Source: a virus. Taken from it: a stretch of DNA of 55,207 nt. The DNA lies in IMG/VR virus record IMGVR_UViG_3300044640_002813, positions 1 to 55,207 of that record; one strand, written 5' to 3'. The position numbers were made by a program, and so were the translations under genes. Below are positions 1,391 to 25,502 of this stretch, one piece after another (position 1 is the stretch's first letter; every line of letters starts with the position of its first letter). The notes under the pieces are model-generated. The model worked only from the letters and a program-made list of their open reading frames with translations, made no database searches and had not been told where the DNA came from.

Positions 1391-2416
1391 ATGGGATTTA
1401 GACACGTTATACCCTATTCAAAATGGCATAAGGTAAATGAAGTTAATATTGCGGCATATAATCAACCTTCTATTCCACTTAAACAGCCTATTTTAACTAA
1501 TAAGGATGGATCATCTATTCCTAATCCTGAAGATAAAAAAGAAGGGGCTCCGGTTGTTAAAACGGAGGATCCAGCTCCTAGCGGAATTCCAACTCCGAAT
1601 AATACTTCATTGCGGGACGATTTAATTACAATCGCAGTAAATAAGACAGTGGTTAAATTTATAGATTTAATGAACGAGAATAAAAAATATTTTCCAGCTG
1701 AATTATATAAAGGAAAAAAAGAATTTTGGGAATTCTTCACTAATGTTCAAAATGGAACCTTAAGTAAGCCTGAATTTGCTAAAATGGTAAAAGACAAGAA
1801 GCTTATATTCTGTCCGCCAGTTGATAGCGATATGAAAGTTTCAATGGACTACTTCACGTGGTTCCCGTCTGATGACACTGGAGAAAACTGGACGCTTGAA
1901 CCCTATACTCAACCTGGATTCAATAAGATCGCTTGGACTTTTAAAGATAGTTATTCATGTCCAGTTCCAACAACAAAGGAAGAGAGAGAAAAAGAACCTA
2001 CTCTAGGTGAAACCTTTCCTCAGTTAGGACTAGGAAATCCAGATTCTTCTACTAAAACCTGTCCATTTGGGCCGGGTGAATGGCTATATGTCAAGCAATT
2101 CTCAGGTTCTGAGGCTCCAGAATATAATGGTCAGAAAAAGGTTTCTGCCAGATCTCTTGCGGCTACCTCATCTGCTACTTCTTCTACACTTACTACTAGC
2201 GCAACTCCAGCAGTTCCAGTTCCTACTGATATCTTGATCCTTGAACAGGACTACGAAACCAAGGTTACTACTGGTAAATCGTATGGATATGTCTTGTTAA
2301 TTAAGAGAAATCAAGCTCAAGGAGGATCAGCATCTTATGGTGGAGTCAGAGGAGGAAGTTACGGAGTAGGAGGATACGGAACCCCAGTTGAAAAGTACAG
2401 TGCAAAGTACTTCTAA
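1391..2416 (+). CDS. Putative capsid-targeted internal protein, 341 aa
   Basis: The N-terminus MGFRHVIPYSKWHKVNE|VN is a short basic/aromatic leader ending V-N-E, like T4 capsid-targeting sequences cut by the prohead protease. Ten of its residues (HVIPYSKW plus context) recur at the extreme C-terminus of the 23553-25502 product, which argues that the peptide is a mobile tag. The body has a Pro-rich linker (residues about 35-70), a globular middle with several Trp and Cys residues (about 75-240), a Ser/Thr/Ala linker and a Gly/Tyr/Ser-rich tail ending AKYF. No enzymatic domain recognised. It starts 23 nt after a late-type element and is followed by another leader-bearing gene. Role inferred as an ejected or internal head protein; actual activity unknown. 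Confidence 0.85.
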   Translation: MGFRHVIPYSKWHKVNEVNIAAYNQPSIPLKQPILTNKDGSSIPNPEDKKEGAPVVKTEDPAPSGIPTPNNTSLRDDLITIAVNKTVVKFIDLMNENKKYFPAELYKGKKEFWEFFTNVQNGTLSKPEFAKMVKDKKLIFCPPVDSDMKVSMDYFTWFPSDDTGENWTLEPYTQPGFNKIAWTFKDSYSCPVPTTKEEREKEPTLGETFPQLGLGNPDSSTKTCPFGPGEWLYVKQFSGSEAPEYNGQKKVSARSLAATSSATSSTLTTSATPAVPVPTDILILEQDYETKVTTGKSYGYVLLIKRNQAQGGSASYGGVRGGSYGVGGYGTPVEKYSAKYF

Positions 2417-2441
2417 TTTGAAAAAAAGGAGTAATAAGGGA

Positions 2442-2465: not shown

Positions 2466-4097
2466 ATGTCTCACATTAAGAATTTTAAAGACTGGTTCCG
2501 AGTATATGAATCGGCAGGATTTAAGTACAAGTCAGGAATGGCAATTTTCGAAACGACCCCCACTCCAAGCGATGGTTCAATAGAAGCAGATATAAAGGTT
2601 CAATTTGCTGCAGGAGCATATGGAGCAACTCAAGCTGAACAAGATCAGTTAATAGGTCAAATACGAACAAGTTTAACCCCATTAGTAGAGTTCATTAAAA
2701 ATCCTGCACCGGATTATTTTGGACACTTTATAAATATTGAAGTTGAAGCTAGTGCAGACGCAACTGGATTATCAGCGGGAGCACTCCAAAAAGCTGCTGC
2801 TCTAGGGATCACCGCACAAATGCAACCTTCTGAACAAAATACAATTTTATCAAATGCTAGAAAGGATACGTGTATCAAATTAATAAACAAAATATTAGTA
2901 GAAGAACTTGGCGTGACTGAAGAAGAATTAAAAACTAAAATTACTATATCTGGAAAAGCAACAGTTAGTCCTAACCTAAATGATCCAAGTGCAAGATTTG
3001 TAAAAGCTAGATTAAGTAAGGGAGCTCAATATTTGCCGCCGCCGCCGCCTGATAAGATAGAAGAAGACGTACTCAAATGTGGTTACGAAGAAACAAAGGA
3101 GGGAACCGAAGCTAAAAAATATCCATACATTGGATATGAAAAAAAGGTTAAAAGTTCTATGAGGACTGGTCAAAAAATGACTTTGTCATTTAATTCATAC
3201 AACTATCCAGATGCATTCTATATAAAATATGGAGACGTTGAAAAATTTAGCGGATTCATTGGAGCACAAAAAAAGGACGGTAGAGATTTTAATTCGGAGC
3301 TATCTAGCTATGGAGCAGAACTTAAAAAAGCAGTTGATGAGACTATTAAGAGACTCGGAGGAAAGATTGAATCAGATTTACAAACAGATTTTCAAGTAAC
3401 AGGCACACCTACTGAAATGACGAATGCTTTAAAAAAGAAAATAAAGGAGAGTACACTTGATCCTAAATATCATGAATGGCCTCTTATGATTGTAGGATAC
3501 TTAAATGATAGCGGTAATCGATCCGACGGAATTTTGGGGACCACTTGGGTTCAAAATCCTGGAGAAGCTATGGCTTTACCGCCAGATGAATATTTAATAG
3601 GCGCTAAATCACAAAACAGTTTAATGTTAAAAACTCTATTAAAAGAAGGGTTTATTTCTATTCCAGATGAAGGCAATTATAGTGATGCATTTCGGGAAAA
3701 ACTAGAGGGTACTGATTCTAATCCTACTGAAAATGATAAAAAATTAATAGAAGAAGAAGGATCAAAATGGAAAAAAGTGAAATGGACTATTGACAATGCT
3801 TCTAAATTTGCTGGAGGAGGAAGGGGCATAGACGGTTCAACAATAAAGCCTAGAGACATAACAAAGGAAAAAAACTACACGCCGTTAACCAAAGAAATAG
3901 TTTTGGAAATGATTAAGAATGGAAGTTTAGGGGAAGAAGTAAAGAATAGAAGAAACTTAACTCCAAATCCCGCAAATAAAAATGCACTGGATTTTAATTT
4001 TACCTTTGAAAAAGATTTTAGAGATGAATACGTAACAATTGTTGTATTTTCGCCTTTATCTGGAACCGAATTTAATATTAAAGCAACTTGTAAATAA
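2466..4097 (+). CDS. Putative capsid-targeted protein with OmpA-like N-terminal region, 543 aa
   Basis: The leader MSHIKNFKDWFRVYE|SA is shared residue for residue with the 4765 gene, and a second possible cut follows shortly (MAIFE|T). Residues about 30-190 look OmpA-like: a V-x-F start, a run of helix, then an I-x-V-E strand followed by a region with LS, NARK and ARFVKARLS, the order seen in peptidoglycan-associated OmpA domains. This is a weak match made by eye. A PPPPPP linker follows at about residue 193, then roughly 340 residues of unknown fold, with a WPLMIVGYLNDSGN segment. It lies downstream of a late-type element and convergent to a small secreted-protein gene. Likely a virion-internal protein; function otherwise unknown. 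Confidence 0.85.
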   Translation: MSHIKNFKDWFRVYESAGFKYKSGMAIFETTPTPSDGSIEADIKVQFAAGAYGATQAEQDQLIGQIRTSLTPLVEFIKNPAPDYFGHFINIEVEASADATGLSAGALQKAAALGITAQMQPSEQNTILSNARKDTCIKLINKILVEELGVTEEELKTKITISGKATVSPNLNDPSARFVKARLSKGAQYLPPPPPDKIEEDVLKCGYEETKEGTEAKKYPYIGYEKKVKSSMRTGQKMTLSFNSYNYPDAFYIKYGDVEKFSGFIGAQKKDGRDFNSELSSYGAELKKAVDETIKRLGGKIESDLQTDFQVTGTPTEMTNALKKKIKESTLDPKYHEWPLMIVGYLNDSGNRSDGILGTTWVQNPGEAMALPPDEYLIGAKSQNSLMLKTLLKEGFISIPDEGNYSDAFREKLEGTDSNPTENDKKLIEEEGSKWKKVKWTIDNASKFAGGGRGIDGSTIKPRDITKEKNYTPLTKEIVLEMIKNGSLGEEVKNRRNLTPNPANKNALDFNFTFEKDFRDEYVTIVVFSPLSGTEFNIKATCK

Positions 4098-4101
4098 ACA
4101 A

Positions 4102-4133
4102 TTGAGCACTGATAATGCATTATCAGTGCTCAA
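4102..4133. terminator. Perfect 32-bp palindrome between convergent genes
   Basis: Two exact 16-nt inverted arms (TTGAGCACTGATAATG and its complement) with no loop lie between two convergent genes. The stop codon of the minus-strand gene (4123-4125) sits inside it. On the minus-strand transcript it is followed by a U-rich tract, so it can act as a terminator there; the plus-strand side has no T run. A protein-binding operator or recombination site is an alternative. Confidence 0.6.
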
Positions 4134-4662: not shown

Positions 4663-4738
4663 CGTTTTCGGATTTAATTGGTTATAATCTAATTTACTCA
4701 ATTTTATCGACATTTTTAAAAAAAATCATTTCTTTTAA

Positions 4739-4764: not shown

Positions 4765-6561
4765 ATGTCACACATTAAAAACTTTAAAGACTGGTTCCGA
4801 GTGTATGAATCAGCAGGATTTAAGTATCAGCCTGGCATGGCAATATTTGAAGCGACAATTACCCCAGGGGCGCTTTATGCTGCTGATACTGCTATTGAAA
4901 ATTTGGAAGGGTTGTCAACTAAACTTGATAAAATGACTTCAGAAATGTCAACTGACTGGACCTCACTTATAAATGGATGGAAAAAATTAATTGCAAACAA
5001 AGCACCGGGTGACGGAAAGGCTGAGACAAGTAACGTTTACACAACATGGTTTGAGGGCTCCAAAGCCGGTAATCTCGACAAGGCACAGACAGAGTTCAGT
5101 GCATTCCTAGCAGACACCACCAAATATACAAAACCATCTTTTTCAATTGTGAAGAATGATTTTGTAATTAACAATGCAAAAGGAAGAAAGGTTCCGTTTA
5201 CTAACGGATCACTAACATGGTGGATCAATGCTGACAATTTACTCATGAGGTTTAATGCAACTAATATTTTAAATATGCTTGTATCGTTAAATGACCACTA
5301 TCCGACTGCAGCTTGGGCCAGCGGTAAAACAGTTGAACAGTTGGGATCAATGGCATGGGACAAAATAAAAGATGGAGGAGGCATAGGAAAATGGTATTGG
5401 CCTGATGCCGCAGTTGCCAAAATCGTCGCCCCTGCTATCCAAAGATTCTTATCCTGGAAAGATGCATTAGCGATAAGCTCAGGTTCTAAAGCATTGTCTG
5501 CTGATAGCTTAGGTGGAGGAATCAAGGCAGGAGATACGGTTTCAGACCCAAAAGGGATGGAAAAGGAGATTCTTGTTCAAAAATTTGGTTTTTATACTAT
5601 TGCTTCAGTGGAACAAGGAGCCGGAAATGAATACACCAAATTTGAGACAACCTCAGTTCAGGTTCCAGTCGGAGGAGGAAAAGGGGCAGTTGCAGTTAAA
5701 GACGATAAGCAATCTTTACTGGGATCATCTGGTTTATTTGCTCAAGGTTCTAAAACTCCAGTTCCAGCCAAAGCCGCTGGACAGCTTGAAGCCTTACAAA
5801 AGATATTAAGTCAGTATTCTAACATTACTTCTATTAAAGTTCAAGGATCCGCCTCATGGGAATGGACTAACGGTAACACAAGAGACGACGCTCAAAATCT
5901 GGCATTAGCTAAAATTAGAGCTCAATGGTTTATTGATCAACTTAATGTCGGAACAAACAAAGTTGCAACCATGTGGATGCCTACTGAAGTAGATAAAGTG
6001 GTAAATGGAGTAAAGCAGGTAGTAGGTGAAGGGGCCGTAGTTCAACCTACTAATGATGTAAAAACTGCTCCTGATTGGAGGGTAACCAACTTCTTTATAA
6101 CTGGAGATAAAGTAACAGAAAATACACTACCTGAAAAATGGATCACAGTGACTGAAACTGGAGATATTACATTAAAATATGATAAGGTTACAATCACCGA
6201 GCATATTTTAACGGTTTCTTTTACATCTCCAGGATTGATAACGTCTAAAGGATGGGGACAGGAGAAAGGTAAAAAAGATATAAAATCAGAGCTTAAACAG
6301 AGTACTAAATGGGATGACTTAAAGGCGGGACAGGAGATAGTTATAAACGATAAGTCAGACCCTCCAAAACCAGTCGGAGGTGGAGTCGATGGTAAACAGA
6401 TTTTCGTAGTAGGCGAAGGTACTGAAAAAAATACCTTAAAGGTTAAATTGGTAACTACAAAGGACGGTCAGAAATCAGAAAGAGAGATTGACAACGTAAT
6501 CAAAGATAGATATCTAAGAGAAGTAAAACCTAAACCTGTCGAAGGAGAAGATAACTTATAA
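4765..6561 (+). CDS. Putative capsid-targeted protein with OmpA-like domain, 598 aa
   Basis: It begins with the same leader as the 2466 product, MSHIKNFKDWFRVYE|SA, followed by a second potential cut MAIFE|AT. After the leader the two proteins diverge. Residues about 325-395 look like an OmpA/Pal-type peptidoglycan-associating fold: a helix (LEALQKILSQYSNITSI), a V-x-G-S-A strand, and an LALAKIRAQWFIDQL helix matching the usual LAxxRA pattern. The C-terminal third is beta-rich with Gly/Lys-rich turns and ends in an acidic tail. The downstream hairpin at 6577-6608 closes the unit. A peptidoglycan- or envelope-interacting internal protein is plausible; that role is inference. Confidence 0.87.
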   Translation: MSHIKNFKDWFRVYESAGFKYQPGMAIFEATITPGALYAADTAIENLEGLSTKLDKMTSEMSTDWTSLINGWKKLIANKAPGDGKAETSNVYTTWFEGSKAGNLDKAQTEFSAFLADTTKYTKPSFSIVKNDFVINNAKGRKVPFTNGSLTWWINADNLLMRFNATNILNMLVSLNDHYPTAAWASGKTVEQLGSMAWDKIKDGGGIGKWYWPDAAVAKIVAPAIQRFLSWKDALAISSGSKALSADSLGGGIKAGDTVSDPKGMEKEILVQKFGFYTIASVEQGAGNEYTKFETTSVQVPVGGGKGAVAVKDDKQSLLGSSGLFAQGSKTPVPAKAAGQLEALQKILSQYSNITSIKVQGSASWEWTNGNTRDDAQNLALAKIRAQWFIDQLNVGTNKVATMWMPTEVDKVVNGVKQVVGEGAVVQPTNDVKTAPDWRVTNFFITGDKVTENTLPEKWITVTETGDITLKYDKVTITEHILTVSFTSPGLITSKGWGQEKGKKDIKSELKQSTKWDDLKAGQEIVINDKSDPPKPVGGGVDGKQIFVVGEGTEKNTLKVKLVTTKDGQKSEREIDNVIKDRYLREVKPKPVEGEDNL

Positions 6562-7534: not shown

Positions 7535-8618
7535 AAATTAATCCTCCAAGTCCTAGTTCTTCTAGTCCTAATTCTTTAAAGATGTCAGTATAAACTGTAG
7601 CAGTTTTACCGGTTGCAATGAATTGTAAGAATTTACTACATGCTCCCATTAAGCTGTGACGTTCTACCACATCTTTGATATCAGCTTTCTTATCCCAAGA
7701 ATCTGGTGCCTTTTTCTTATAGTCTCCCTTGTCTCCTAGGTATTCAATGAATTTTCTGTATTCTACATCGATCTGACCGTCTGACATGGTACCCGTTTCG
7801 ATGTCCTTAGCTGCAGCTAACAATTGAGCAAGAGGCCCAGCTGCTGAAATTGATTGATAACTACCAAAGTCTTTTAATTCTTCAGGATCAATCTGAGACA
7901 ATTGCCTTTGGAAATCCTCCTTCTTTTTAACCGATTTCTTATCGTATACTTTGGTCAAGATGTTAGTGTATTCTTTCTTAAAATAATCCAAGAAAATCTT
8001 GTCGTCCATCTTTTTAGTCTCTTCTCGTTTCTCACGTTTTTCAGTAGCTCTGGTTTCTCGTTCCATGATATAGAGAACTGAATTTTCAGTGATGTCCTCT
8101 CTTAATTGTTCGATTGTGCCTCTCCATGCTGCTACTGGTTCTCCAGTCTCGCGGTCAATAGTTACGATTCGGATATAGTTACCGCGTTTCTGAGAAACTT
8201 CTGGACGGTCTGGATCGTATCCTTTCCAATCCCGAGTCTTACCTGTTTTTCGGGTAATGTAGTGAACCATCTGTTCGTCTGGATTTACCAAGATCAATTT
8301 AACTGCAGTATCAGTTCTTTTATCAATACTGTTTACTAAGTAATCATAGATTCTCTGAACTCCTGATTTGGATCCAACTACTCCAACGTCATGTGATACC
8401 GGATCATCCTGAGTTTGAGGCCAGTCTCCACCGTATTCTCCGTGTAAGGTTCTAAATTTACCTCCACGCATCATACCGGATTTGGTTCTAGCAACATTTT
8501 TGCCAGTCAGCTTGTGAATGAACTGCATCAGGTCCTTTGGAACCCCTAGTTTGGTCAATTCACTCGCCATCTCATTGATCTGAGAATATTGATTGAATCC
8601 TTTTAAATATCTTTTCAT
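7533..8618 (-). CDS. Putative capsid-targeted internal protein, 361 aa
   Basis: The N-terminus MKRYLKGFNQYSQINE|MA is a leader of the capsid-targeting type ending I-N-E. The body contains a beta-rich region (about residues 85-180: VKLILVNPDEQMVHYITRK and NYIRIVTIDRETGEPVAAW), a very charged helical stretch (about 185-245, RETRATEKREKREETKK) and a helical C-terminal half ending in Leu/Gly. No family recognised. A late-type element precedes the start by 25 nt, back to back with that of the 8694 gene, so two leader-bearing genes are fired divergently from 75 bp. Internal or ejected protein by inference; function unknown. Confidence 0.85.
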   Translation of the reverse strand: MKRYLKGFNQYSQINEMASELTKLGVPKDLMQFIHKLTGKNVARTKSGMMRGGKFRTLHGEYGGDWPQTQDDPVSHDVGVVGSKSGVQRIYDYLVNSIDKRTDTAVKLILVNPDEQMVHYITRKTGKTRDWKGYDPDRPEVSQKRGNYIRIVTIDRETGEPVAAWRGTIEQLREDITENSVLYIMERETRATEKREKREETKKMDDKIFLDYFKKEYTNILTKVYDKKSVKKKEDFQRQLSQIDPEELKDFGSYQSISAAGPLAQLLAAAKDIETGTMSDGQIDVEYRKFIEYLGDKGDYKKKAPDSWDKKADIKDVVERHSLMGACSKFLQFIATGKTATVYTDIFKELGLEELGLGGLI

Positions 8619-8693: not shown

Positions 8694-10097
8694 ATGAGTA
8701 ATAGATTTATCATTACAGAATATAAAAATTGGTCTAAATTTGGACATGCTAATTTTAATAAAATTTATGAGAATATTCCGAAGGATGCCTCTCTAGCGGC
8801 AGGTCCGGTTGCTCCAGTAGCGCCAGTAGCGCCAGTAGCGCCAGGCCAAGTAGATGCGGCTACTCCAACTACAACAGTTCCAGAAGAACTTCAAACAGCT
8901 GACACTCAGCAAAAGGCTAATGAAGAATTAGATAGAGGATGTAATTGGATGGTTGTTGCAAAATCAGATGGAAATAAGGAGGTTTTATATATTAAGGAAG
9001 AAAAAACAGCAGATTCTACTTCCTTTACTCTATTAGCAGGAGACAAGGCTAAAGCAGAAGCTGTTTCTAAATTTAGCACTGGCTTATCTACTATACGAGT
9101 TCAAGGCGGAGGATTTGATAAAACTAAAGCGATAGGATCCTATTATTTCGGTTCATTAGGAGGATCCTATAATGTATATGTTGCAAAAGACGATCACTGC
9201 TTCTATCTTAAGCAGGTTCTCGGACAGGGAACTACCGGATCTAGTTTGACTGCTAATGCATCGGCAGATTCGATGGGAGAATATTATACGGTTGAATGGG
9301 TAAGAGATGAAAATTTTGCGAATAGCGGAATTTTGATGGTGTGGAAAAAATTAGCAAGCGGAAAGCTAGAGAAAAAAGGATATTTACAGCCTGATACCGG
9401 AGGAGAAGACTACGTGTTTATCAAATTTTTAAGTCAAACTGGATCATGGGAGCCTAAAGCGCTGAGTGATGGCCCTAGATATTTTGTTAATGCAAATAGA
9501 ATAATAACATTTGCTAATAATCTCTGGAATGCGATGTCTGGGGGTGGAACTGATCCGTTTTTAATAAACGGGACTCTAACTGACATGCAACCTCTTGAAT
9601 TCCTGGTTTTAGAGAGATTATGGACCAGCAATGCGTGGTCAACACCAGCTGGAACTCTTAGTAAACTAGATCCTAGAATTTCAAATGCTTCAGACTTTGC
9701 TAAATTTGCCAATGCAACTCCAGTGTATGACCAGGCTGACGTCGATACCAACGATCCTATGTCTTCTTCTGACGATATTGTAGAATATTTCCCTTCAGCT
9801 AAAACTCCAAGCTTGCTACTGGATTTATTTTGGGAAATGGAGGATCATTATGATGAACGCCAACTAGCAATGACAACACAGCTTGATAGATTAATCGGAG
9901 GTCTAGTTAATGAAAAGGAAGCTGATTATGCAAAGCCTTTTCAAATTGAAGAAGAACAATCTGGAAATATTATAATTAATACCCAAGAAGATATCCTCGA
10001 ATTAAAAGGTATAAAAGGATTAAGCATTATTGAATTAGGTAAAATGCTACAAAACGAGGCAAGTGGATATAAATTATCTGAATACTGGAAAGATTAA
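8694..10097 (+). CDS. Putative capsid-targeted internal protein, 467 aa
   Basis: The leader has aromatic residues and ends NFNKIYE|NI (residues about 21-29), a longer version of the capsid-targeting pattern. A Pro/Ala linker with four APV units (encoded by a 9-bp tandem repeat near 8808-8843) separates it from a beta-rich body containing repeated Gly/Tyr/Ser strands (about residues 100-220) and a helical C-terminal part. No enzymatic motif recognised. It is co-transcribed with the 10112 gene 14 bp downstream, which has its own leader. Probably an internal head protein; function unknown. Confidence 0.85.
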   Translation: MSNRFIITEYKNWSKFGHANFNKIYENIPKDASLAAGPVAPVAPVAPVAPGQVDAATPTTTVPEELQTADTQQKANEELDRGCNWMVVAKSDGNKEVLYIKEEKTADSTSFTLLAGDKAKAEAVSKFSTGLSTIRVQGGGFDKTKAIGSYYFGSLGGSYNVYVAKDDHCFYLKQVLGQGTTGSSLTANASADSMGEYYTVEWVRDENFANSGILMVWKKLASGKLEKKGYLQPDTGGEDYVFIKFLSQTGSWEPKALSDGPRYFVNANRIITFANNLWNAMSGGGTDPFLINGTLTDMQPLEFLVLERLWTSNAWSTPAGTLSKLDPRISNASDFAKFANATPVYDQADVDTNDPMSSSDDIVEYFPSAKTPSLLLDLFWEMEDHYDERQLAMTTQLDRLIGGLVNEKEADYAKPFQIEEEQSGNIIINTQEDILELKGIKGLSIIELGKMLQNEASGYKLSEYWKD

Positions 10098-10111: not shown

Positions 10112-11119
10112 ATGAGAATTGCCGGATATCAAAACTGGTCCAACCGAAATTTTAAGGGGCTATATGAAGATGTGGAAGTAACACAAGTTGATCCAATAGG
10201 ATCTAAGAAAATGTCATTTACAGCTGGAACTAGTTGGGATGGTAAAATGGTTCTTAAGCCTAATGGTGAAGACAAATTCATTTTAAAGATTATTGATAAA
10301 GATCGAAGTAATATAGAATACCCATATCTGCAGGCGGATGGTCGCCTGATAAAAGGATCAGAAGCTGACATTCTTAAATTTATACAGGAAAAAGGAGGAT
10401 TTGATCCCTCGATTCTTAAAACCAAAATTCTAGTTTATTATGGAAAGATAAAAAGAGGTGGAGCTCTTCAAATTATAAGTTTTGAACTTGTAAACCGAGA
10501 TGCTGTACCTGCTTCTGTTAATTTTGTACATAGCAATGAATGGAAGTCTGGAATAATTACTCCTAATCTTGATACTTCAATTGAATCGGATCCAGAATCT
10601 AAATCGGAAGCTGGGTCTCAAATAAATCTATCGGGAGGATCTAATTCTGTTGATCTAACTTCCGGAGACGCATTGAATGATCCTTTATATAAAAGATTAG
10701 TTGGACCTGGAATTCTTCCTCTTGAATATGGAGACGGTGGAACAAAAAGAATTGACAGCAAATATGTTAAAGTTGTGATTCAGTGGCTTCAAGCAATCTT
10801 GAAAAATCTAGGACAAAATATATCAGCAGACGGATGGTTTGGACCGATTACGATTAAAGCAATTGGATCTATAAACGGTCAAACATATACTGATGAGCAG
10901 ACTAAATCATTTAAATTTACAGATGTTGAGGCCCTTAAATTAGTAAATAAGGCTAAAGAAGCAAAAATAACTGCCGAGCAGGTTGAAAAATCTATTCCAG
11001 ATTATTTTGGATCTAAGCCTAAAGTTTATACTAATTCAGGGTCTAAGCCTGCTTCTTCTAATACTCCTGCGAGTTCAACGGCTCCTGCTAAAATGAAGAG
11101 AGTCATTAAATTTGGATAA
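10112..11119 (+). CDS. Putative capsid-targeted protein with peptidoglycan-binding-like domain, 335 aa
   Basis: The leader MRIAGYQNWSNRNFKGLYE|DV ends L-Y-E. Residues about 215-260 resemble the PG_binding_1 fold: VVIQWLQAILKNLGQNI followed by ADGWFGPITIKAIGSI, matching the usual pattern of an L-x-x-L-G helix, DGxFGPxT and a final helix. A Ser/Pro/Ala linker and the basic end MKRVIKFG follow. The N-terminal 150 residues are beta-rich and unassigned. Its 3' end overlaps the convergent 11106 gene by 14 bp. An encapsidated wall-binding protein is the best reading; the leader and domain are visible, the role is inferred. Confidence 0.87.
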   Translation: MRIAGYQNWSNRNFKGLYEDVEVTQVDPIGSKKMSFTAGTSWDGKMVLKPNGEDKFILKIIDKDRSNIEYPYLQADGRLIKGSEADILKFIQEKGGFDPSILKTKILVYYGKIKRGGALQIISFELVNRDAVPASVNFVHSNEWKSGIITPNLDTSIESDPESKSEAGSQINLSGGSNSVDLTSGDALNDPLYKRLVGPGILPLEYGDGGTKRIDSKYVKVVIQWLQAILKNLGQNISADGWFGPITIKAIGSINGQTYTDEQTKSFKFTDVEALKLVNKAKEAKITAEQVEKSIPDYFGSKPKVYTNSGSKPASSNTPASSTAPAKMKRVIKFG

Positions 11120-12058: not shown

Positions 12059-12496
12059 TTAGAATTTAAGTCGGCAGTTATTGTTTTTTAGATTCTTTTT
12101 GCACCAGCCTGATTTTAATTCAACTGCAAATCTGCAAGGCTTCTTACTGGAATATTTAGGAAGATCCTCTTCTTCTAGGTCGGTTCCAGGTTCCATTGTT
12201 TGATTATCTATCAAATTAAGATTAGAATCAAAGAAGAGAATATCTAGAGGAAAATCGACATTTTTCATCCAGAAAACCAAAGGTTCCTCAGAATCATAGA
12301 CGAATAGGATTCCCTCATCATCTCCGGGCTCACCTGAGTGCATGAATCCTTTAGATCGAGTTTCATCTTTAGCTGCAACTTTAAGTTTAACAGGGATTCC
12401 CTCGATGTGAGCTACTATTTCCTTACCATCGATCTGATTTTTTCGACAGAAATTTTCAAACAGAGGAACAAATTGATCTTCGGATCGGTATTGCAT
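12059..12496 (-). CDS. DUF192-family protein with possible capsid-targeting leader, 145 aa
   Basis: Residues about 27-140 fit DUF192 (COG1430): SKGFMHSGEPGDDEGILFVY, then PLVFWMKNVDFPLDILFFD, then a Pro-Gly turn and a C-terminal AVELKSGW. Family members are small beta-barrel proteins, often exported, of unknown biochemical role. No signal peptide is present. Instead the N-terminus MQYRSEDQFVPLFE|NF resembles the leaders of neighbouring proteins (compare FDQFITE|A in the adjacent gene), suggesting capsid targeting. Its ATG overlaps the stop of the 1028-residue gene by one base, so the two are translationally linked. Family confident; leader less so. Confidence 0.88.
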   Translation of the reverse strand: MQYRSEDQFVPLFENFCRKNQIDGKEIVAHIEGIPVKLKVAAKDETRSKGFMHSGEPGDDEGILFVYDSEEPLVFWMKNVDFPLDILFFDSNLNLIDNQTMEPGTDLEEEDLPKYSSKKPCRFAVELKSGWCKKNLKNNNCRLKF

Positions 12497-15582: not shown

Positions 15583-15841
15583 ATTTATTACGTAAATTTT
15601 TCATCATAGTTTGACCGTTCTTGGTATTTGAAACTGATTTAAGATCAGAGAAAAACATCTCTAGAACCTGGCCTAATTTAGCTATAGGTTTACTCTTTTC
15701 TCTTTCACTAGGTCTTTTAGTTGGAACAGGTCTCCAAGGTCTAGTTGCAGGGGGTGCAGTAGTTGGAGGAGCGGTAGTAGGCTTAACCTCAGTAGCATAT
15801 TCTGCCCATTCGTTAATTCCTTTTACATAATTAATTTTCAT
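15575..15841 (-). CDS. Small putative capsid-targeted protein, 88 aa
   Basis: The N-terminus MKINYVKGINE|WAEYATE contains I-N-E in leader position, followed by a Thr/Pro-rich linker (VKPTTAPPTTAPP), a basic region and a helical end (LEMFFSDLKSVSNTKNGQTM). No family recognised. It is the first gene of the unit with the 1028-residue protein and DUF192 gene, behind a late-type element. Size and composition (short, basic, proline linker) suit a head-internal peptide precursor; that is inference. Confidence 0.78.
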   Translation of the reverse strand: MKINYVKGINEWAEYATEVKPTTAPPTTAPPATRPWRPVPTKRPSEREKSKPIAKLGQVLEMFFSDLKSVSNTKNGQTMMKNLRNKYA

Positions 15842-15935: not shown

Positions 15936-16316
15936 TTACCAGTTTTTTCTCCATCTCCAAGATTCGTTAGCTGGCTCTTCACCTTCAGCTGGCTCTTCGC
16001 CTTCTTCACCTTCAGCTGGCTCTTCGCCTTCTTCACCTTCAGCTGGCTCTTCTTCAGCTCCACCACCTTCTAATTCTTCAACTCTAGCTGTCAAATCATC
16101 AAGCATAGCTTTTAAATCTTCTAGTGTAACTTCTTCTCCTTCTCCTTCAGCTCCTTCTTCGCCTTCTTCTGGCATTTCATCAGTTAAAGCAGCTCCACCT
16201 TCTTCATCCTCTGGATTAGCTCCATAGTATCCGAAGTCTTCGCCTTCTGCATATTCTCCTGACATTGATTCATTCAATCTTGCTCGCATGAATCCTGAAA
16301 AATTTTTTACTTTCAT
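15936..16316 (-). CDS. Very acidic putative prohead core protein with cut sites at both ends, 126 aa
   Basis: The leader MKVKNFSGFMRARLNE|SM and the C-terminus PANE|SWRWRKNW both carry an N-E|S site and both flanking tags are basic/aromatic. The roughly 100 residues between them are extremely acidic, with Glu-Gly-Glu repeats (EEPAEGEEGEEPAEGEE, encoded by a direct repeat at about 15970-16050). This resembles T4 prohead core proteins such as gp67, which the prohead protease reduces to acidic internal peptides. It is a monocistronic unit between a late-type element and a strong terminator, as suits a highly expressed protein. Homology by sequence is not claimed; the analogy is from architecture. 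Confidence 0.85.
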   Translation of the reverse strand: MKVKNFSGFMRARLNESMSGEYAEGEDFGYYGANPEDEEGGAALTDEMPEEGEEGAEGEGEEVTLEDLKAMLDDLTARVEELEGGGAEEEPAEGEEGEEPAEGEEGEEPAEGEEPANESWRWRKNW

Positions 16317-17067: not shown

Positions 17068-19206
17068 TTAAGCGTATTCTTCTGAAAAATTAGGTCTAAT
17101 TCCCTGAGCTGCAGATATTCCCCAGGTAGGATCAGTTCCCCATCCTCCATTTGCTCTAACGAAATTATAGATCGCATCATCTATAGTTTCAAATCCGTTA
17201 GGATCTATTCCTTTCTGTTTAAGTTGAGGAACTAACATTGCAACTGCAATCTTAGCAGCTATCACTGGATTATTAGCAAGATCGGGATTAGAGACAAGAT
17301 CAGCTCCGACCACCTTACCATACTGAGCATATAGGCTCTTAAAGGTGATGCCATTAAATCCTCTACCTCTATATTTCCAACCGTCTCCTTTTTGAGTATT
17401 ACCGGTATTTGGCCATAAATAAGGAGTAGCCTCCTTTCCATAAACCGCGTCCCAGAATTCCTCTTCATTATTTTTAAGAGCGGTCAGTTCAGCGTCATCA
17501 TATTTTGCAACTCTGGCTCCAAAAATAGATCGGATTCGGCTATTAGCTGTTGTTGCATAGCTTATTTCTCTCTGAGGTATAAATCCACTCTCTTTTCCAA
17601 TAACACAAAGAAGTCCAATTAAAGACTTGGTATTAGTGATTCCCGCCTTTTTAGCTACTTCTTCTATGATCCTGATATTTTTAGCCTGCTCACCCGTATA
17701 TGTGTGCTTGATTCGACTAGGTCCAGTTATTTCTATTTGGATATCACCTTGATCGACCTTTCCAGAATCCGCTATTTCTTCATCAGGGAGAGAAAATAAT
17801 CTTAACATTATTTTACCTATTTCAGTGTCTGTAATGTCCTTTTCCTCTTTTTGAATAACCTGAATAATTCTATCATCTTTTTTTATAAATTGGCCTGTTG
17901 GTTTTTTATCTTTATCGTATACATCATAAATATTTTTATCCATAAATTTACGCTTAACTATAAGCATTCTTCTATTTTCTTTATCATATATTTTAATAAA
18001 ATTTCTTCTCTTTTTAGAAAAACTGGTTCCTGAATAGAGTTCCCTTTCAGTATCGTCGTCTAGAGCTCCAGTCTCAGGCAGACCTTTATCTTTTTGAAAT
18101 TTCATTAAAGTTGCTTTAGTTTCTCCATAAAAGAGACCATCAATTCCATATACTGGAAGCTCGTATCCTTTATCAACTAGGGCCTGTTGCATTCGTTTAA
18201 CGTCTTCTGATTCTGAACCATATTTTAAAGTTCCTCCTTCTGAAGATGATGAAGAAATATCTCTACCTGCCCCTGATAGATATGGAAGAGGATCAACATG
18301 GTCCCCATTGAGAGATTTTCTGATTTCAAAGTGTAGATGTGCCCCTCTAGAATTTCCAGCCCCTCCTTCTACTCCTTGATCTCCGCCTGACTTTCCTATG
18401 ATCTGACCCTTTTTGACGCTATCACCTGCCTGGACATCCATTTGAGAAAGATGAGCGTATAAAGAATAGAGGGTTTCACCGCCTACATCATGTCGAATTA
18501 ATATCACGTTTCCATATCCATACTTATCTGACATATCGGCACGTTCAACGGTTCCGTCTGCAATTGATACAACACCTGCCCCAGTTGGAATACCTAGATC
18601 TATTCCTTTATGCATTCTTCCCCACCTAGGTCCAAATTTTGAAGTTAAAGTGGCTTCAGATGCTAGTGGATAATTAAATTTTCCTTCTCCAGAATCTGAT
18701 TCTTCAGGTTCAGTTTTAGGTGCTCCTAATATATTTCCAGATTCATCAACATAGTTTTTTAAATCTTTATTCTTAAGTCCAATATGTACATGTTCATACC
18801 ACGTTCTGCCGTCTGATGGCCGACCGATATGACCGATGAGTTCACCTTTCTTTAGTTCATATCCACTTTTAATTGAAGGTTCTAAACTTCCAAGATGAGT
18901 GTAGAACACCTTTTCATTGAATTCTGATGCCGTTACCGTGACATGCCAACCATATACTTTCTGATTAGATGAGTTAGATAATTTTACTGATTTAACTTTA
19001 CCGTCAAATATCGAATATACTGGAGTTCCTGCTTTTGCCATGACATCCCATGCATTATCAGATTCCCAATTACCAAATGCCCTTTTACCATGTGCATCAG
19101 GTCCGCCACCCCATGTGAATTTTTTGTTTCCAACCAAGTGGCTAGATGAGGTTGCAGATTCGTTAATTGCTTTATGATATTTCCAAGGATTTATGAAATC
19201 GTGCAT
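17068..19206 (-). CDS. Four-domain peptidoglycan hydrolase (M23-M23-PG_binding-GH19) with capsid-targeting-like leader
   Basis: 712 residues. The leader MHDFINPWKYHKAINE|SA ends I-N-E|S. The first M23-like domain is at about 25-150 (H104 in YTHL, H139 and H141 in HVHIGL; the first zinc His is replaced by Asp50 in SDNAWD, so activity is doubtful). The second M23 domain, at about 180-305, has a complete set: H199 and D203 in HKGIDLG, H252 in YAHL, H290 and H292 in HLHFEI. A PG_binding_1 domain follows at about 328-392. The C-terminal 510-712 resembles GH19/phage endolysin, with probable catalytic E539 (GKESGF) and KYRGRGFNGIT. It should cleave both peptide cross-links and glycan strands. No signal peptide. 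Late-type element upstream. Location inside the capsid is inferred from the leader; a tail-associated or lysis role remains possible. Confidence 0.95.
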   Translation of the reverse strand: MHDFINPWKYHKAINESATSSSHLVGNKKFTWGGGPDAHGKRAFGNWESDNAWDVMAKAGTPVYSIFDGKVKSVKLSNSSNQKVYGWHVTVTASEFNEKVFYTHLGSLEPSIKSGYELKKGELIGHIGRPSDGRTWYEHVHIGLKNKDLKNYVDESGNILGAPKTEPEESDSGEGKFNYPLASEATLTSKFGPRWGRMHKGIDLGIPTGAGVVSIADGTVERADMSDKYGYGNVILIRHDVGGETLYSLYAHLSQMDVQAGDSVKKGQIIGKSGGDQGVEGGAGNSRGAHLHFEIRKSLNGDHVDPLPYLSGAGRDISSSSSEGGTLKYGSESEDVKRMQQALVDKGYELPVYGIDGLFYGETKATLMKFQKDKGLPETGALDDDTERELYSGTSFSKKRRNFIKIYDKENRRMLIVKRKFMDKNIYDVYDKDKKPTGQFIKKDDRIIQVIQKEEKDITDTEIGKIMLRLFSLPDEEIADSGKVDQGDIQIEITGPSRIKHTYTGEQAKNIRIIEEVAKKAGITNTKSLIGLLCVIGKESGFIPQREISYATTANSRIRSIFGARVAKYDDAELTALKNNEEEFWDAVYGKEATPYLWPNTGNTQKGDGWKYRGRGFNGITFKSLYAQYGKVVGADLVSNPDLANNPVIAAKIAVAMLVPQLKQKGIDPNGFETIDDAIYNFVRANGGWGTDPTWGISAAQGIRPNFSEEYA

Positions 19207-19236: not shown

Positions 19237-19712
19237 GAAAGGCGGTCTAGAATTATCATTTGAGATCTGTGTATCATTCCATAAGCATCTCGGATTGGAA
19301 CAAATCCTGCCCAGTCTACTTCTTCTAATTGTAATTGAGATTTAGGAACTTTAAGATCTATAAGATCTATTTCTGAAAGATCTTGAATTAGCATATTAAA
19401 ATAAATCAGCTGGCCTGTCAATTTACCTGAATCATCATACTTATATGACTCCATAGGACTGAGATCTAATTGATTTGAAATCTGATCAGGTCTAATAATG
19501 ATTCCAGTTTCCTCCCTCATTTCTCTGATTGCGGCTTCAAGAGGATCTTCACCCTCTTCTATCTTTCCTTTAGGGATGCTTAAATTGTTTTTATGCCAGC
19601 TTGAATTAGTAGAGTGGACCAATAGGATCAAGTCAAGATACTTAATGGCGATCCCAGCGGCTACTCTAGGCTTATTCATAGATTCATTAAAGGATTTAAA
19701 ATTTAAGATCAT
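19233..19712 (-). CDS. Nudix hydrolase with capsid-targeting-like leader, 159 aa
   Basis: A complete Nudix box lies at residues 49-71: G49, E55, then REMREETGI at 63-71, matching G-x5-E-x7-REUXEEXGU. Such enzymes hydrolyse a nucleoside diphosphate linked to another group (NDP-sugars, ADP-ribose, NAD, dinucleoside polyphosphates, capped RNA); the substrate cannot be read from the sequence. The N-terminus MILNFKSFNE|SM precedes the fold and has the leader pattern F-N-E|S, implying packaging in the head and injection. It overlaps the bS21 gene by 17 bp and follows the ATP-grasp-like gene, so the three are one transcript. Family certain; packaging inferred. Confidence 0.95.
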   Translation of the reverse strand: MILNFKSFNESMNKPRVAAGIAIKYLDLILLVHSTNSSWHKNNLSIPKGKIEEGEDPLEAAIREMREETGIIIRPDQISNQLDLSPMESYKYDDSGKLTGQLIYFNMLIQDLSEIDLIDLKVPKSQLQLEEVDWAGFVPIRDAYGMIHRSQMIILDRLS

Positions 19713-20787: not shown

Positions 20788-20795
20788 TACTGATA

Positions 20796-21893
20796 ATGGG
20801 TAAAACTTATAATTCTTGGAAATCAGTTAACGAATGGAATATTTTTAATAATCCAAAAAGAGGAAAACAGGTATTTACTTCCCCGTCTGGTCAAAAACAA
20901 AGAATGGCTTTTAAAATTCAAGATGATTTTAATTTCATTATCAAGCTTTTCAGATTTTCAGACGTTATAGATCAAAAAGGAAATATAACTTCATTAGGAA
21001 TGGACTCGTTAATTAAATTCTTTAATGGACAATCGGACATGACTAACGTTTATGGCCCGTTTGATAGTTCTTTTTTCCAAAAAAAGTTTTTACTCTATAC
21101 AGTATTAGAAGACTCAGCCGACAAAGATAAAATTCAATTTACTATCATTAGTAGGAATATTTATCCAAAATTAGGCCCTCAGAATATTATGGTAAATGCT
21201 ATGAATTTAGCAAATTTAATAAGCGCAAATCAGCCTGAGGACGCTGAAATAATTCAAAATATACAGATTAATCGAGAAAAAGTAAAGGATAAAGATATTG
21301 AAGAGCCTGAAAAATTGAAAGACGATGTCAAGAAGGAAGAGGCAGGCGGAACCGATGCTACTGAAAAGGAATTAGGAAACAAATTTAGATACACCATGAG
21401 ATCAAATGGCAAACTTTATTTAATGGAGTTTGCAGCAGGAGGAGCGATAGACGCTCAAGTAATAGGAGAAGGACATCCGAATGGAGCAATATCATGGGAG
21501 GGATCTAGATTGATGTGGTATACTGATGCTGATTCAGTTGATAATATATCAGTCTATTCTAAATGGATTGATGAGGATATTCCCCTGTACACGGATACTG
21601 AAATAAATAATCCTGCGGATAAAGAATTTTTGTCTAAAATATTTACAGATGATGCATTTAGAAAAAAGGTAATCGGTGAATATGAAAAGGAATTTGGAGA
21701 ATCTGAAGTTAATTCTACAACTATAAAAAAGATGCTATTCTTTAAAGATGGTACTCCTATATTTCCAGAAGAAATAAAGCAACCAGTTCAATCCTCAACT
21801 ATTGATTCTAATACTGAAGATAATGTAGTTGAAGAACCTAAAGAAGACGAGGACTATGAATGGGTTAGAAAAGAAGAAACAAAATATTTCTAA
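20796..21893 (+). CDS. Putative capsid-targeted internal protein, 365 aa
   Basis: The leader MGKTYNSWKSVNE|WN ends V-N-E. The body has an N-terminal alpha/beta region (about residues 20-130), a charged linker (KDDVKKEEAGGTDATEKE), a beta-rich middle containing KLYLMEFAAGGAIDAQVIGE and an acidic tail ending EEDYEWVRKEETKYF-like residues. Its last residues KYF resemble the AKYF end of the 1391 product, but this is too short to weigh. No family recognised. It is 6 bp upstream of the 21900 gene, and both are leader-bearing, so they are probably co-packaged. Function unknown. Confidence 0.85.
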   Translation: MGKTYNSWKSVNEWNIFNNPKRGKQVFTSPSGQKQRMAFKIQDDFNFIIKLFRFSDVIDQKGNITSLGMDSLIKFFNGQSDMTNVYGPFDSSFFQKKFLLYTVLEDSADKDKIQFTIISRNIYPKLGPQNIMVNAMNLANLISANQPEDAEIIQNIQINREKVKDKDIEEPEKLKDDVKKEEAGGTDATEKELGNKFRYTMRSNGKLYLMEFAAGGAIDAQVIGEGHPNGAISWEGSRLMWYTDADSVDNISVYSKWIDEDIPLYTDTEINNPADKEFLSKIFTDDAFRKKVIGEYEKEFGESEVNSTTIKKMLFFKDGTPIFPEEIKQPVQSSTIDSNTEDNVVEEPKEDEDYEWVRKEETKYF

Positions 21894-21899: not shown

Positions 21900-23552
21900 A
21901 TGTATAACGTAAATAATTATAAAAGATACGGTAATTTTTTATACGAGGACCTGAATATTTCTCTATCTGATGATTTAAATCCAAGATTGAAGCAATATCT
22001 GACCAATCAAAAATTAATAGACTTTTTAGCTGATAATTTTGATACTGTACCCGATGGACAGGAAGGTCAGATTCAATTAAATAACGAAGATTATGGAATA
22101 TTAAAAGAAGATAAGCTGTTTGTAAAAGTTGATAAGTCTAATCCTAAAGATCCTAAATTCTACTTATGGATCATGAATGATCAATTTTTATTCGGTGATG
22201 TTAATTTCGATATTGCAGCGACTCTATTAAAGCAAGCTGGAGATGAAGGAGGAACGATCGGGTATGTAGGAAATTTGTTAGGATCATTAATAGGATTGGG
22301 AGATGCTGGAGATTCCGGAACTGACGAAGACACAATAGTCGCAGTAGCAGGAGCAATGGCATCAATTGCTGCTGAAAAGAGTCAAGATCCGATGCTATAT
22401 TTTTCTAAATTAGCTGAGACTTTTTCTAAAAAATACGGACAAGATCTAACTTCTTTCTTAGAAACTGAATTTTCAGGAGGGTCAGAAGTGGCAGCTCTTA
22501 ACGCATTTAGAAGACCGATATCAGCTTCAACCGCTAGAGGTTTAAACATTCCAATGATTCTATTTGATGTTGCTTTAACTGCAGTTACATTTGGAGCTGG
22601 CACTGTTTTAAAAGCAGGGGTTCCAGCCGGAGCCAGAGGAGCAGCTGCAGCTACTCGTGCAGGTGAAGGTGCATTGGCCGCAACACGAGCAGGAGAAGCA
22701 GCAGGAGCTGCCGCAAGAGGAGCTGAAGCAGCAGCAGCCGGAGTCCGAGGAGCTGAAGGAGCAGTGATTGCTGGAGATGCAGCTTTAACTGGAACAAAAG
22801 GAGTTATATCCCGGCTTAAAGGATGGGCGGGAATTGGAAAAACCAAACAGATTAGTAATATTGAGCAGGAGATCAAAGTCGGTCAGCAGATCATGTATAA
22901 ACAAAAAAATAAAATGGTTCCACACAAAGTAACTGGAATAACTCAAAATGGAGTTCAGCTTCAGGCTTTAAGCGGACCTAAAAATACTTTCATAGCTGCC
23001 GCCGATAAATTTGTGTTAGAAGTTCATCCTAATCTTGCAAATAGAATTCTTAACCGAGCAGGATTAAATACAACTAAAGCCGGTTTAATACTTGCAACTA
23101 CTAAAATTAATAGCATTGTAGGTGCAACCTCTTCAACCGTAAGTCAGCCTGCTGGATTCTTTGGAAAAGCTGGAGAAATTATGGGATGGTACGATACATT
23201 TACAGCAGATGCAGGATCTTTTGCTGCATCTCTTCAAAATAAAACTGCTAAAGAATTAGCAGAAATGCTATTCGATCTTAAAAAAGGAACTGGATTCTTC
23301 GGTAATACTACTAATCAAGAGGAATTAGCAATGGCAGTTATCATAACCAGCCTTAGCCCTGAAGGAGCAAGACAGGTTCAAGCTGAATACTCTAAAATAG
23401 ATACTGAGATGTCAGTGTACGCTCTCTTAGCTGATGAAATTGGAGGAGAAGTTGGAATGTTCGCTAAGGCATATTGGACAGGAATAACCGGTGAAGGTAC
23501 AGAATATGTATCTGCAATCAGAAACGTTAGGGCTAAATTAAGAGCTAAATAA
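21900..23552 (+). CDS. Putative capsid-targeted protein with hydrophobic/Ala-rich region, 550 aa
   Basis: The leader MYNVNNYKRYGNFLYE|DL ends L-Y-E. Residues about 110-160 are Gly/Ala-rich and hydrophobic. Residues about 205-240 (IPMILFDVALTAVTFGAGTV) are followed by about 60 residues of Ala/Gly/Arg/Glu repeats (RAGEGALAATRAGEAAGAA). This combination resembles the hydrophobic pre-toxin regions of polymorphic toxins. The C-terminal 250 residues have a short beta-barrel-like segment (VGQQIMYKQKNKMVPHKVTG) and helices. No toxin domain recognised. The stop abuts (no gap) the stop of the convergent 649-residue gene, which has similar hydrophobic segments. Possible injected membrane-active protein; inference only. 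Confidence 0.87.
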   Translation: MYNVNNYKRYGNFLYEDLNISLSDDLNPRLKQYLTNQKLIDFLADNFDTVPDGQEGQIQLNNEDYGILKEDKLFVKVDKSNPKDPKFYLWIMNDQFLFGDVNFDIAATLLKQAGDEGGTIGYVGNLLGSLIGLGDAGDSGTDEDTIVAVAGAMASIAAEKSQDPMLYFSKLAETFSKKYGQDLTSFLETEFSGGSEVAALNAFRRPISASTARGLNIPMILFDVALTAVTFGAGTVLKAGVPAGARGAAAATRAGEGALAATRAGEAAGAAARGAEAAAAGVRGAEGAVIAGDAALTGTKGVISRLKGWAGIGKTKQISNIEQEIKVGQQIMYKQKNKMVPHKVTGITQNGVQLQALSGPKNTFIAAADKFVLEVHPNLANRILNRAGLNTTKAGLILATTKINSIVGATSSTVSQPAGFFGKAGEIMGWYDTFTADAGSFAASLQNKTAKELAEMLFDLKKGTGFFGNTTNQEELAMAVIITSLSPEGARQVQAEYSKIDTEMSVYALLADEIGGEVGMFAKAYWTGITGEGTEYVSAIRNVRAKLRAK

Positions 23553-25502
23553 TCACCATTTAGAGTAGGGAATCACGTGTTTAAACTTGGTAGATTCAGA
23601 TATATCTTTTTTAACAGTTGTTTCCTCTTCAGAATCTTTTAATTCAGGTGGAGTATCAATAGATAATTTCATTTCTTCATAATAATCAGGATTATCCGCG
23701 TGTACATTTGAATACCATTCTGCAACTTCAGGAGGTAATTTATCTTTTTCTCCACTTGTATAGTATACAACATCAACTATTCTAGGAAGATTAAATTTTT
23801 TGGCATAATAATCCAAATTATTTTGTAAAACTGGAACCGCATCATTATTTTCAAACGCATCTATATAGGGTACGCTGTATGATGCGTCTGGATTTTCTTT
23901 TAATTCTCGATCCATAATCTCTTGCATCTTCTGTTGAACTGCAGCATTTCCAAATAGTTCATATTCTCCTTCACTAAACTTTTTAGTTTGTCCGAAATGT
24001 CCAATCAATTTAAGAACCTGTTTCCCAATGAACAGGGGTACCATTTTACCAATTGTAATAGTTCCGAAAATCTTTCCAAACTTGTTTGCCTGACCGTATG
24101 TGTTACTAACTCGATTCATAAGACCTCCCACCTCTCCATAAAAGGAGTTTGCATTCATTTTAACACGACTCATCTCTGAAGTCAGATTCGTACCATATCT
24201 AGCAGAGATAAAATCAGTTTCTTTTAGAAATTCAGCGTCCAATTTAACCGCAGTTCCACTTTTAGTATTTACAATTAAATCGGTTCCTTTTGCTTCAATT
24301 CTTGCTCCATCTGAAGCGGCAGCCATAAAGAAATCATCTAGTTTTTGAACTTTGGCAGCATCTAATAATTGAGGAATGTTAGAAGCAAATTGATTCATTT
24401 TAGCAGAATAGGTTCCAAACATGTCAGCTATTCCTTCAAAAAAGGATCTTAAGGGTTTACCTACAAACGGGATCCATCCAACCACTGTTCCTAGAAAATC
24501 TCCAAAGAACTTAGCTATTAAATCTCCTATTGTTCCTAAAACCCCCTTAGTGCTTTTTCCAATATAGTCCAGGGCTTTCCAACTTTCAGGTCTAGCTGCT
24601 GCTGCTAAATTTATCGCATCTTTAGACATTTTAGCTGATCCACCTGCAACACCTCCGGCTGCTCCCATGTAACGGGTACTGATTTGTAAAACCTCAGCTC
24701 CTGCTTTGGATCCTTTAAACCAGCCTTTGAAAAGATCCCCAGCAAATGGAAGAGCTGCACATATAAAATTGATTAGTGCAAGTAACCATTTACCTCGAAT
24801 CATATAAATTATTCCATTGATGATATCCGCTATTAATCCTACTGGCTCAAATGCCGATCCAAAAAGTCCAACTAAATCTAGAACAAAGTGAAGAATTCCA
24901 ATTGGGGATCCTCCTTCAGTCAATGCACTTAGTAAGCCTTTCAGCATTCCTAATATTCCACCACCTCCCCAGTCCCCTTGAGAAGGGGAAGCTGCTCCGC
25001 TTACTGCAGCTAGAACGTCGTCTCCAGCTTCAGAAGAAGCAGGTGTAAATTCTCCAGATGCGGAAGAAGTTGGAGTCTCATCAAAAAATGACATGACATC
25101 ATCAGCAGTTTTTCCAATATCAAACGGGAGAGAAATATCGCTCTCGTTCACTTTCTTGAATCCAAATTCTCGAATCACTTTACTATATGATTCATTTAGT
25201 TTAGTGATCTCAGATTGAGACATGTGATTGAGGGACTCACGAACGATAGAATTAACTCCTCCCATCAGGTTTTTATAATAGTCAGTGCTTGTTACGATTC
25301 CTCGTTTAAGAATCATATCCAATTCAAGTTGGAATCTTAGATCTTCCGGAACCGACTCTTCAATCTTATTTAGGAAGTCGCATTCCTTTTTAATGGTTTC
25401 TAAACTAAGGGCCTTTGATAATTTATCCGCGTGCCCAACTAGTGCCTCATTAATAACAGAAGATAAATGGTTCAACTCAGAATAAGAGGAAACATGATTC
25501 AT
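23553..25502 (-). CDS. Putative capsid-targeted protein tagged at both ends, 649 aa
   Basis: The N-terminus has a long leader ending NHLSSVINE|AL (residues about 10-21). The C-terminus is DISE|STKFKHVIPYSKW, whose last ten residues nearly repeat the N-terminal tag of the 1391 product (FRHVIPYSKW) and which carries its own I-S-E|S site. Residues about 180-280 are hydrophobic, with GILGMLKGLLSAL, IGILHFVLDLVGLFGSAF and ADIINGIIYMIRGKWLLALI then ALPFAGD. That pattern (Dxxngiiy, Gxxxx-Al, lPxxGD) is familiar from pre-toxin regions of polymorphic toxins. The C-terminal half is mixed and unassigned. Late-type element upstream. A packaged, membrane-interacting effector is the inference. Confidence 0.88.
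   Translation of the reverse strand: MNHVSSYSELNHLSSVINEALVGHADKLSKALSLETIKKECDFLNKIEESVPEDLRFQLELDMILKRGIVTSTDYYKNLMGGVNSIVRESLNHMSQSEITKLNESYSKVIREFGFKKVNESDISLPFDIGKTADDVMSFFDETPTSSASGEFTPASSEAGDDVLAAVSGAASPSQGDWGGGGILGMLKGLLSALTEGGSPIGILHFVLDLVGLFGSAFEPVGLIADIINGIIYMIRGKWLLALINFICAALPFAGDLFKGWFKGSKAGAEVLQISTRYMGAAGGVAGGSAKMSKDAINLAAAARPESWKALDYIGKSTKGVLGTIGDLIAKFFGDFLGTVVGWIPFVGKPLRSFFEGIADMFGTYSAKMNQFASNIPQLLDAAKVQKLDDFFMAAASDGARIEAKGTDLIVNTKSGTAVKLDAEFLKETDFISARYGTNLTSEMSRVKMNANSFYGEVGGLMNRVSNTYGQANKFGKIFGTITIGKMVPLFIGKQVLKLIGHFGQTKKFSEGEYELFGNAAVQQKMQEIMDRELKENPDASYSVPYIDAFENNDAVPVLQNNLDYYAKKFNLPRIVDVVYYTSGEKDKLPPEVAEWYSNVHADNPDYYEEMKLSIDTPPELKDSEEETTVKKDISESTKFKHVIPYSKW

Follow-up and report, generated by a model that had tools for sequence, protein, structure and literature searches.

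Why do so many unrelated proteins in one part of this viral DNA begin in the same way? The IMG/VR record was analysed whole and is referred to here as the window (55,207 bases, linear, a fragment). Within an island of the window, 14 otherwise unrelated proteins carry an N-terminal leader of 10-26 residues that is basic and aromatic with few acids. The aromatic residues usually form a pair spaced i,i+3, and the leader ends in (I/L/V/F)-x-E, as in FKDWFRVYE/S, FDQFITE/A, FSGFMRARLNE/S and YNSWKSVNE/W (a slash marks the predicted cut). A sequence-only reading of this DNA had proposed that such N-termini are T4-type capsid-targeting leaders, and all the N-terminal leaders that it listed are present at the given starts. 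The leaders, the weaker candidates and the truncated gene at the left edge are as follows.

1391..1441, plus strand: leader MGFRHVIPYSKWHKVNE/ of 1391-2416; motif match; HVIPYSKW in common with the C-terminus of 23553-25502
2466..2510, plus strand: leader MSHIKNFKDWFRVYE/ of 2466-4097; motif match; FKDWFRVYE recurs in relative G003 (103959); a second site, AIFE/ at residue 29, is possible
4765..4809, plus strand: leader MSHIKNFKDWFRVYE/ of 4765-6561; motif match; leader DNA like that of 2466
8571..8618, minus strand: leader MKRYLKGFNQYSQINE/ of 7533-8618; Glu aligned in 4/4 sequences, leader with indels
8694..8771, plus strand: leader MSNRFIITEYKNWSKFGHANFNKIYE/ of 8694-10097; motif match
10112..10168, plus strand: leader MRIAGYQNWSNRNFKGLYE/ of 10112-11119 (peptidoglycan-binding domain); motif match and ortholog alignment
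12455..12496, minus strand: probable leader MQYRSEDQFVPLFE/ of the DUF192 protein 12059-12496; (P/S)(L/M)FE kept in 6/6 sequences
15544..15582, minus strand: leader MHKLRGFDQFITE/ of 12496-15582 (1028 aa); homologue in a huge phage also with a leader
15788..15841, minus strand: weak leader candidate MKINYVKGINEWAEYATE of 15575-15841; site-only motif
16269..16316, minus strand: leader MKVKNFSGFMRARLNE/ of the acidic protein 15936-16316; Glu kept in 5/5 sequences
19159..19206, minus strand: leader MHDFINPWKYHKAINE/ of 17068-19206 (two M23 domains, PG_binding_1, GH19)
19683..19712, minus strand: leader MILNFKSFNE/ of the NUDIX hydrolase 19233-19712; Pfam NUDIX begins at residue 15
20796..20834, plus strand: leader MGKTYNSWKSVNE/ of 20796-21893; Glu aligned in 4/4 sequences
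21900..21947, plus strand: leader MYNVNNYKRYGNFLYE/ of 21900-23552; Glu aligned in 4/4 sequences
25446..25502, minus strand: leader MNHVSSYSELNHLSSVINE/ of 23553-25502; hydrophobic-x-E near the start in 6/6 orthologues, strict alignment placing the site in 2/6
136..432, plus strand: 3' part of a gene cut at the window's left edge; both orthologues open with leaders, MKSNVESYKKWYRQVFE/ and MNSSVASYDRWWKKVYE/

Judged from these orthologues, the gene at 136-432 is probably one more leader gene whose start lies beyond the window edge. Ten of the 14 leaders fit a motif of pair plus site ([FYW]xx[FYW]...[hydrophobic]xE within the first 30 residues), and four (12059, 17068, 19233 and 23553) depart from its exact form. 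A hydrophobic-x-Glu site of the processing type is present in the leaders according to the site-only motif and the ortholog alignments.

The window carries a T4-type terminase (39122-41101, PHROG terminase match), by which the nearest named phages are Sphingomonas phage PAU and Tenacibaculum phage PTm1, and it encodes a gp6-type baseplate protein. Ribosomal protein bS21 is encoded at 19696-19887 (minus strand, TIGR00030), in a gene overlapping that of the NUDIX leader protein. The accessible part of one study presents bS21 as a mark of large lake Bacteroidetes myoviruses; these freshwater phages encode bS21, as the window does, and have T4-like head genes, and the same part of the study makes no mention of leaders (PMC9723584). 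The lineage of large phages to which the window belongs probably infects Bacteroidota. Two sigma-70-like factors (429-1316 and 38141-38773, both minus strand) are encoded, one of primary and one of ECF type. Collagen-like GPTGDTG repeats and N-rich repeats occur in 45231-47720, 48002-48850 and 49981-53721, which are probably tail fibres; 48002 and 49981 have in common the N-terminus MPLNFP(I/T)PSF(V/I) with 14 further residues not spelled out here. Scattered among the leader genes are two small proteins with signal-peptide-like N-termini, both containing DYNQLN (4123-4713 and 6627-7115, minus strand).

At island N-termini the motif of pair plus site occurs in 10 of 22 cases, compared with 1.55% in protein interiors (P=4e-13). 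It matches 0 of the 27 window proteins outside the island, a control that speaks against such N-termini being general in this phage. The site-only motif is found in 17 of 54 window proteins (interior rate 3.9%, P=1.5e-11). As both motifs were shaped on the leader list of the sequence-only reading, relatives were examined as a fairer test. Megablast of the window's first 25 kb against phages gave no match, and scans of viral contigs with single proteins (12496-15582, 23553-25502, 7533-8618 and 19233-19712) gave few or no matches. A terminase search yielded 69 loci, and five whole records (G001-G005, 62-207 kb) were analysed. N-terminal enrichment of the motif was strong in G003 (25/135, P=7e-14) and G002 (25/193, P=1e-9), followed by G005 (9/65, P=2e-5), and weaker in G001 (16/218, P=6e-5) and G004 (P=0.004). 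Serine follows the Glu in 25 of 89 N-terminal matches in the relatives (28%) versus 16 of 167 interior matches (10%; P=1.7e-4), the residue after Glu having had no part in the selection. Across relatives the letters and the length of the leaders drift while the site Glu and the general form are kept. The proposed island of shared leaders on unrelated proteins was thus borne out both within the window and in its relatives.

Perhaps these N-termini are simply ordinary helices of folded families that resemble each other through compositional chance. The motif is loose and the leader short (interior rate 1.6-3%), and 43846, 41837 and 42087 are chance matches that did not pass the conservation test. 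This explanation is extremely improbable given the lack of matches outside the island, the replication in relatives, the variable leader length and the domain boundary after the cut. In the family of 7533-8618 the leaders end QINE/M, SIFE/M, RLNE/M and AINE/M, and the NUDIX orthologues have the leaders MGIMNFNDFINE, MRAVDFNSFINE, MLRFKDFLNE and MLIKKFSDFVNE; the G003 NUDIX orthologue retains FDEY and lacks the Glu. One leader also sits on two largely unrelated bodies, 2466 and 4765, with DNA conserved over the leader only: it is near-identical across roughly the first 30 codons (between about -10 and +80, steps of 15 bases are 80-100% alike) and diverges after, the bodies beyond being without clear similarity. 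The same picture, of leaders lying outside the folded portions of conserved families, fits the structure model of 7533-8618, in which residues 1-19 have a pLDDT below 50; structure models were used solely to note that leader and C-terminal tag are not confidently folded.

The three candidates that had been called weak fared differently. That of 12059-12496 (PLFE/N), its Glu kept in 6/6 sequences, is likely real, and 43846 was rejected, its Glu being replaced by L, D and D in 3/5 orthologs with no indels nearby. The candidate of 15575-15841 stays weak; the gene at the equivalent position in the huge phage LR745206 begins MRFLKKFEKFNE/. Matches at 41837 and 42087 were likewise discarded as chance, the Glu not being conserved and indels being absent.

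A search for a gp21-type protease had been called for by the sequence-only reading. Neither the gp21-type S77 protease nor scaffold or capsid protein genes were found within the 55-kb fragment. In two relatives, G001 and G002, Peptidase S77 scores above the Pfam cut-off, and both are long enough to hold the head-gene block; G003-G005 are fragments without the protease. In these relatives the protease ORF (about 660 residues; PHROG head maturation protease, E=4e-34) lies between a DnaJ-like gene and the gp23-type major capsid gene, directly upstream of the latter, and its (D/N/E)HP and (S/C)(S/T)R motifs line up with those of T4 gp21 and PAU gp151. Its C-terminal continuation consists of about ten tandem 14-residue repeats, with the consensus YTEYLAEKLNQSIN, that resemble the leader core. 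The fusions are located at:

L085:15494-17485: S77 protease-repeat fusion of G002
L074:12856-14856: S77 protease-repeat fusion of G001
L145-L204: S77 protease-repeat fusions in further loci

Strict copies of the repeat number 6-10 in most of 60 further loci. The strict motif [FYW]xx[FYWH][ILVM]xE occurs 34 times in G001, with nine occurrences in the protease-scaffold, 11 at N-termini (3.4 expected) and at most one in every other protein; G002 is similar. Aromatic pair, hydrophobic-x-E end and the protease in relatives together make T4-type capsid-targeting leaders the best-supported reading. On this sequence evidence the leaders are very probably capsid-targeting sequences and cleaved propeptides, the putative protease link for this phage resting on its relatives.

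The leaders may also imitate a single 14-residue scaffold repeat, a possibility that falls somewhat short of likely. A matrix built from the scaffold repeats only (8 columns) placed about 25 of its 120 top matches at N-termini versus 12 expected (per-genome rows summed), which backs mimicry just modestly, so that it is offered as a hypothesis.

The capsid-targeting sequence of T4 internal proteins and its gp21 protease were reportedly described by Mullaney and Black. IPI, IPII, IPIII and Alt of T4 resemble the window proteins in having a short N-terminal leader with an aromatic pair at i,i+3 and a hydrophobic-x-E site, and T4 resembles the relatives in that a gp21-family protease adjoins a gp23-type capsid gene. 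The window-derived motif gives 11 matches in T4, among them IPI, IPII and IPIII. In IPIII, residues 4 and 7 are the main determinants of packaging and residues 8 and 10 those of processing, and Asp at position 10 stops cutting but not packaging (PMC9026906). In the T4 record IPIII starts MKTYQEFIAE, so residues 4 and 7 are Y and F. Two proteins, 19884-20738 in the window (minus strand, FDDY) and 81778-82260 in G003 (FDEY), have the aromatic pair without a Glu site; by analogy with the Asp-10 mutants they are possibly tagged yet uncut.

The furthest extension of the pattern was seen in LR745206 (LR745206.1, loci L208-L220), an uncultured phage of 634,780 bases with a homologue of 12496-15582. 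This homologue begins MKNFKDFMNE/EVSLKGSSGIPGEGS, and the window protein reads ITE/ASLRGNIGIPGEGD. By the strict rule 98 of its 849 ORFs have leaders versus about 10 expected (P=2e-63), for example MKHLKKFNE/S and MKYLKTYKLFE/S, with Ser after Glu in 43 of the 98, and its protease-scaffold holds 11 strict repeats. Leader proteins include polyA polymerase-like, T4 Rnl1-type RNA ligase, M15 peptidase, methyltransferase and NUDIX proteins, and one of 2H/exonuclease type with weak likeness to Acb1. In LR756502, similar leaders are apparent in the 31 kb examined.

Alternatively, the leaders could send proteins elsewhere, to a membrane, a phage-made compartment or a replication site, with the Glu site incidental. 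In the 635-kb relative leaders do occur on many dispersed genes, and its RNA ligase, polyA polymerase-like and 2H/exonuclease proteins could work in the cytoplasm late in infection. A site Glu followed preferentially by Ser makes little sense without a protease, however; the T4 residue mapping agrees with a capsid address, and the protease-scaffold fusion itself bears the leader motif. Such other destinations are therefore considered very unlikely.

Some tags appear to lie at the other end of the protein. As a genome-wide signal C-terminal tags were not significantly enriched by regex, and they were retained only if backed by orthologues or by the common HVIPYSKW:

23556..23594, minus strand: C-terminal tag ISE/STKFKHVIPYSKW of 23553-25502; backed by orthologue ends
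15939..15962, minus strand: possible C-terminal tag ANE/SWRWRKNW of 15936-16316; G003 orthologue ends ANE/SWRFNKSRRYKRY
35134..35172, minus strand: C-terminal tag VFE/SYRALSFSQFVNS of 35131-35592; conserved residues in relatives

Orthologues of 23553-25502 end MRYITPYSQFIS, MKYIKPFII, KKIMNFSDFNR and ESRILSFSKFIND, with the cores MRYITPYSQF, MKYIKPF, NFSDF and SFSKF. HVIPYSKW is found both in the 1391 leader and at the C-terminus of 23553-25502, and 5 of its 8 codons differ synonymously, which indicates a conserved peptide rather than recent copying. In the 35131 family, E140, F147 and F150 are invariant in 13/13 relatives, the linker varies in length and F-x-x-F stands at the very end. Processing at the C-terminus has precedents in T4 gp21 and Alt (PMC9026906) and in the protease of SPN3US (PMC10052503). 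The C-terminal tail of 26952-28706 (minus strand) is dockerin/EF-hand-like, GDGKVTKKDILIAKGVIKK, and is identical over 24 residues to the tail of an unrelated G002 leader protein (20746-21516).

What the leaders carry bears on their purpose. Cargo in the window comprises the NUDIX hydrolase, the protein with two M23 domains, GH19 and peptidoglycan binding, a second peptidoglycan-binding protein and the DUF192 protein; relatives add NlpC/P60, CHAP, GDSL and AAA domains. PHROG and Pfam assigned no family to most window cargo, PDB sequence searches gave no matches, and fold searches with low-confidence models (pLDDT 62 and 57) gave none at E<=0.001. The cargo could instead be structural proteins of the head or its core (inner shell, vertex, core), with leaders serving as propeptides in assembly, like that of the capsid protein. 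The 35131-35592 family, with sites at both ends and its gene within a conserved structural block, would fit this, as would the many island proteins without an enzyme signature. The NUDIX, M23/GH19 and peptidoglycan-binding cargo and the added domains of the relatives do not, and for several cargo genes, unlike core head genes, some of the relatives yielded no homologue. An exclusively structural role is thus rather unlikely, and the cargo is likely a mixture of structural and injected proteins. The cell-wall enzymes suggest possible help with entry, and the injectable protein arsenal of the sequence-only reading is plausible.

Similar things are done by T4, P1, phiKZ/SPN3US and PAU, and the scale and anatomy seen here are new. 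T4 has about four tagged proteins whereas the window has at least 14 in 25 kb, its leaders more varied and often longer, with some tags C-terminal, and the protease of the relatives, unlike that of T4, is fused to a repeat scaffold. PAU, with its related terminase, T4-type MCP and S77 protease, has a single leader type, ending LYE/(A/S) or LNE/(A/S), on many of its proteins, and 4 of 5 proteins annotated 'internal capsid protein' begin MK(S/T/G)xxxLYE/(A/N). In contrast to the window, its leader is nearly uniform and without the aromatic pair, and in contrast to the relatives its protease and scaffold are separate genes. The PAU portal gp147, protease gp151 and gp155 have C-termini of the form (K/S)L(Y/L)E/SIK(A/S/N)..., a C-terminal version of the PAU leader. 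We know of no separate scaffold in P1. In P1 DarB, the N-terminal 30 residues target a reporter to the capsid (PMC9024508); this targeting sequence is unrelated to the window leaders. In phiKZ and SPN3US, including their ejection proteins, many head-protein propeptides are cut after x-x-E by the gp175 and gp245 proteases, respectively. SPN3US favours Ser at P1' of its cleavage sites, as seen after the window-type Glu, and its propeptides are mostly long (111-254 aa) and end in A-x-E, with nine substrates and 42 uncut head proteins (PMC10052503).

Based on these comparisons, the basic aromatic leader would dock its protein onto the scaffolding core during prohead assembly, perhaps being built into the core by mimicking a single scaffold repeat. 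The S77 prohead protease would then cut after the Glu, releasing the mature protein within the head, and would also dissolve the core, perhaps cutting scaffold repeats as well as leaders. At infection the cargo would leave with the DNA. For this phage we infer docking, packaging, cleavage, presence in the virion and ejection of the cargo. More tentatively than the mimicry itself, the capsid-targeting sequence may be a detached scaffold-repeat copy usable at either protein end, the protease-fused scaffold serving as a loading dock for cargo in general. Larger phages would load more types of cargo, a few in T4 and about a hundred in the 635-kb phage.

If this is true, the leaders would be a sequence-readable address for proteins carried in phage heads, and candidate injected proteins, mostly without assigned function, could be listed from genomes alone. 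Scaffold-repeat copying also points to a way in which the leader of T4 may attach to the core, an explanation not found in the cited literature. The natural leaders and their cargo classes (peptidoglycan enzymes, NUDIX and the RNA-repair and 2H proteins of the huge relative) would be usable for studies of early infection.
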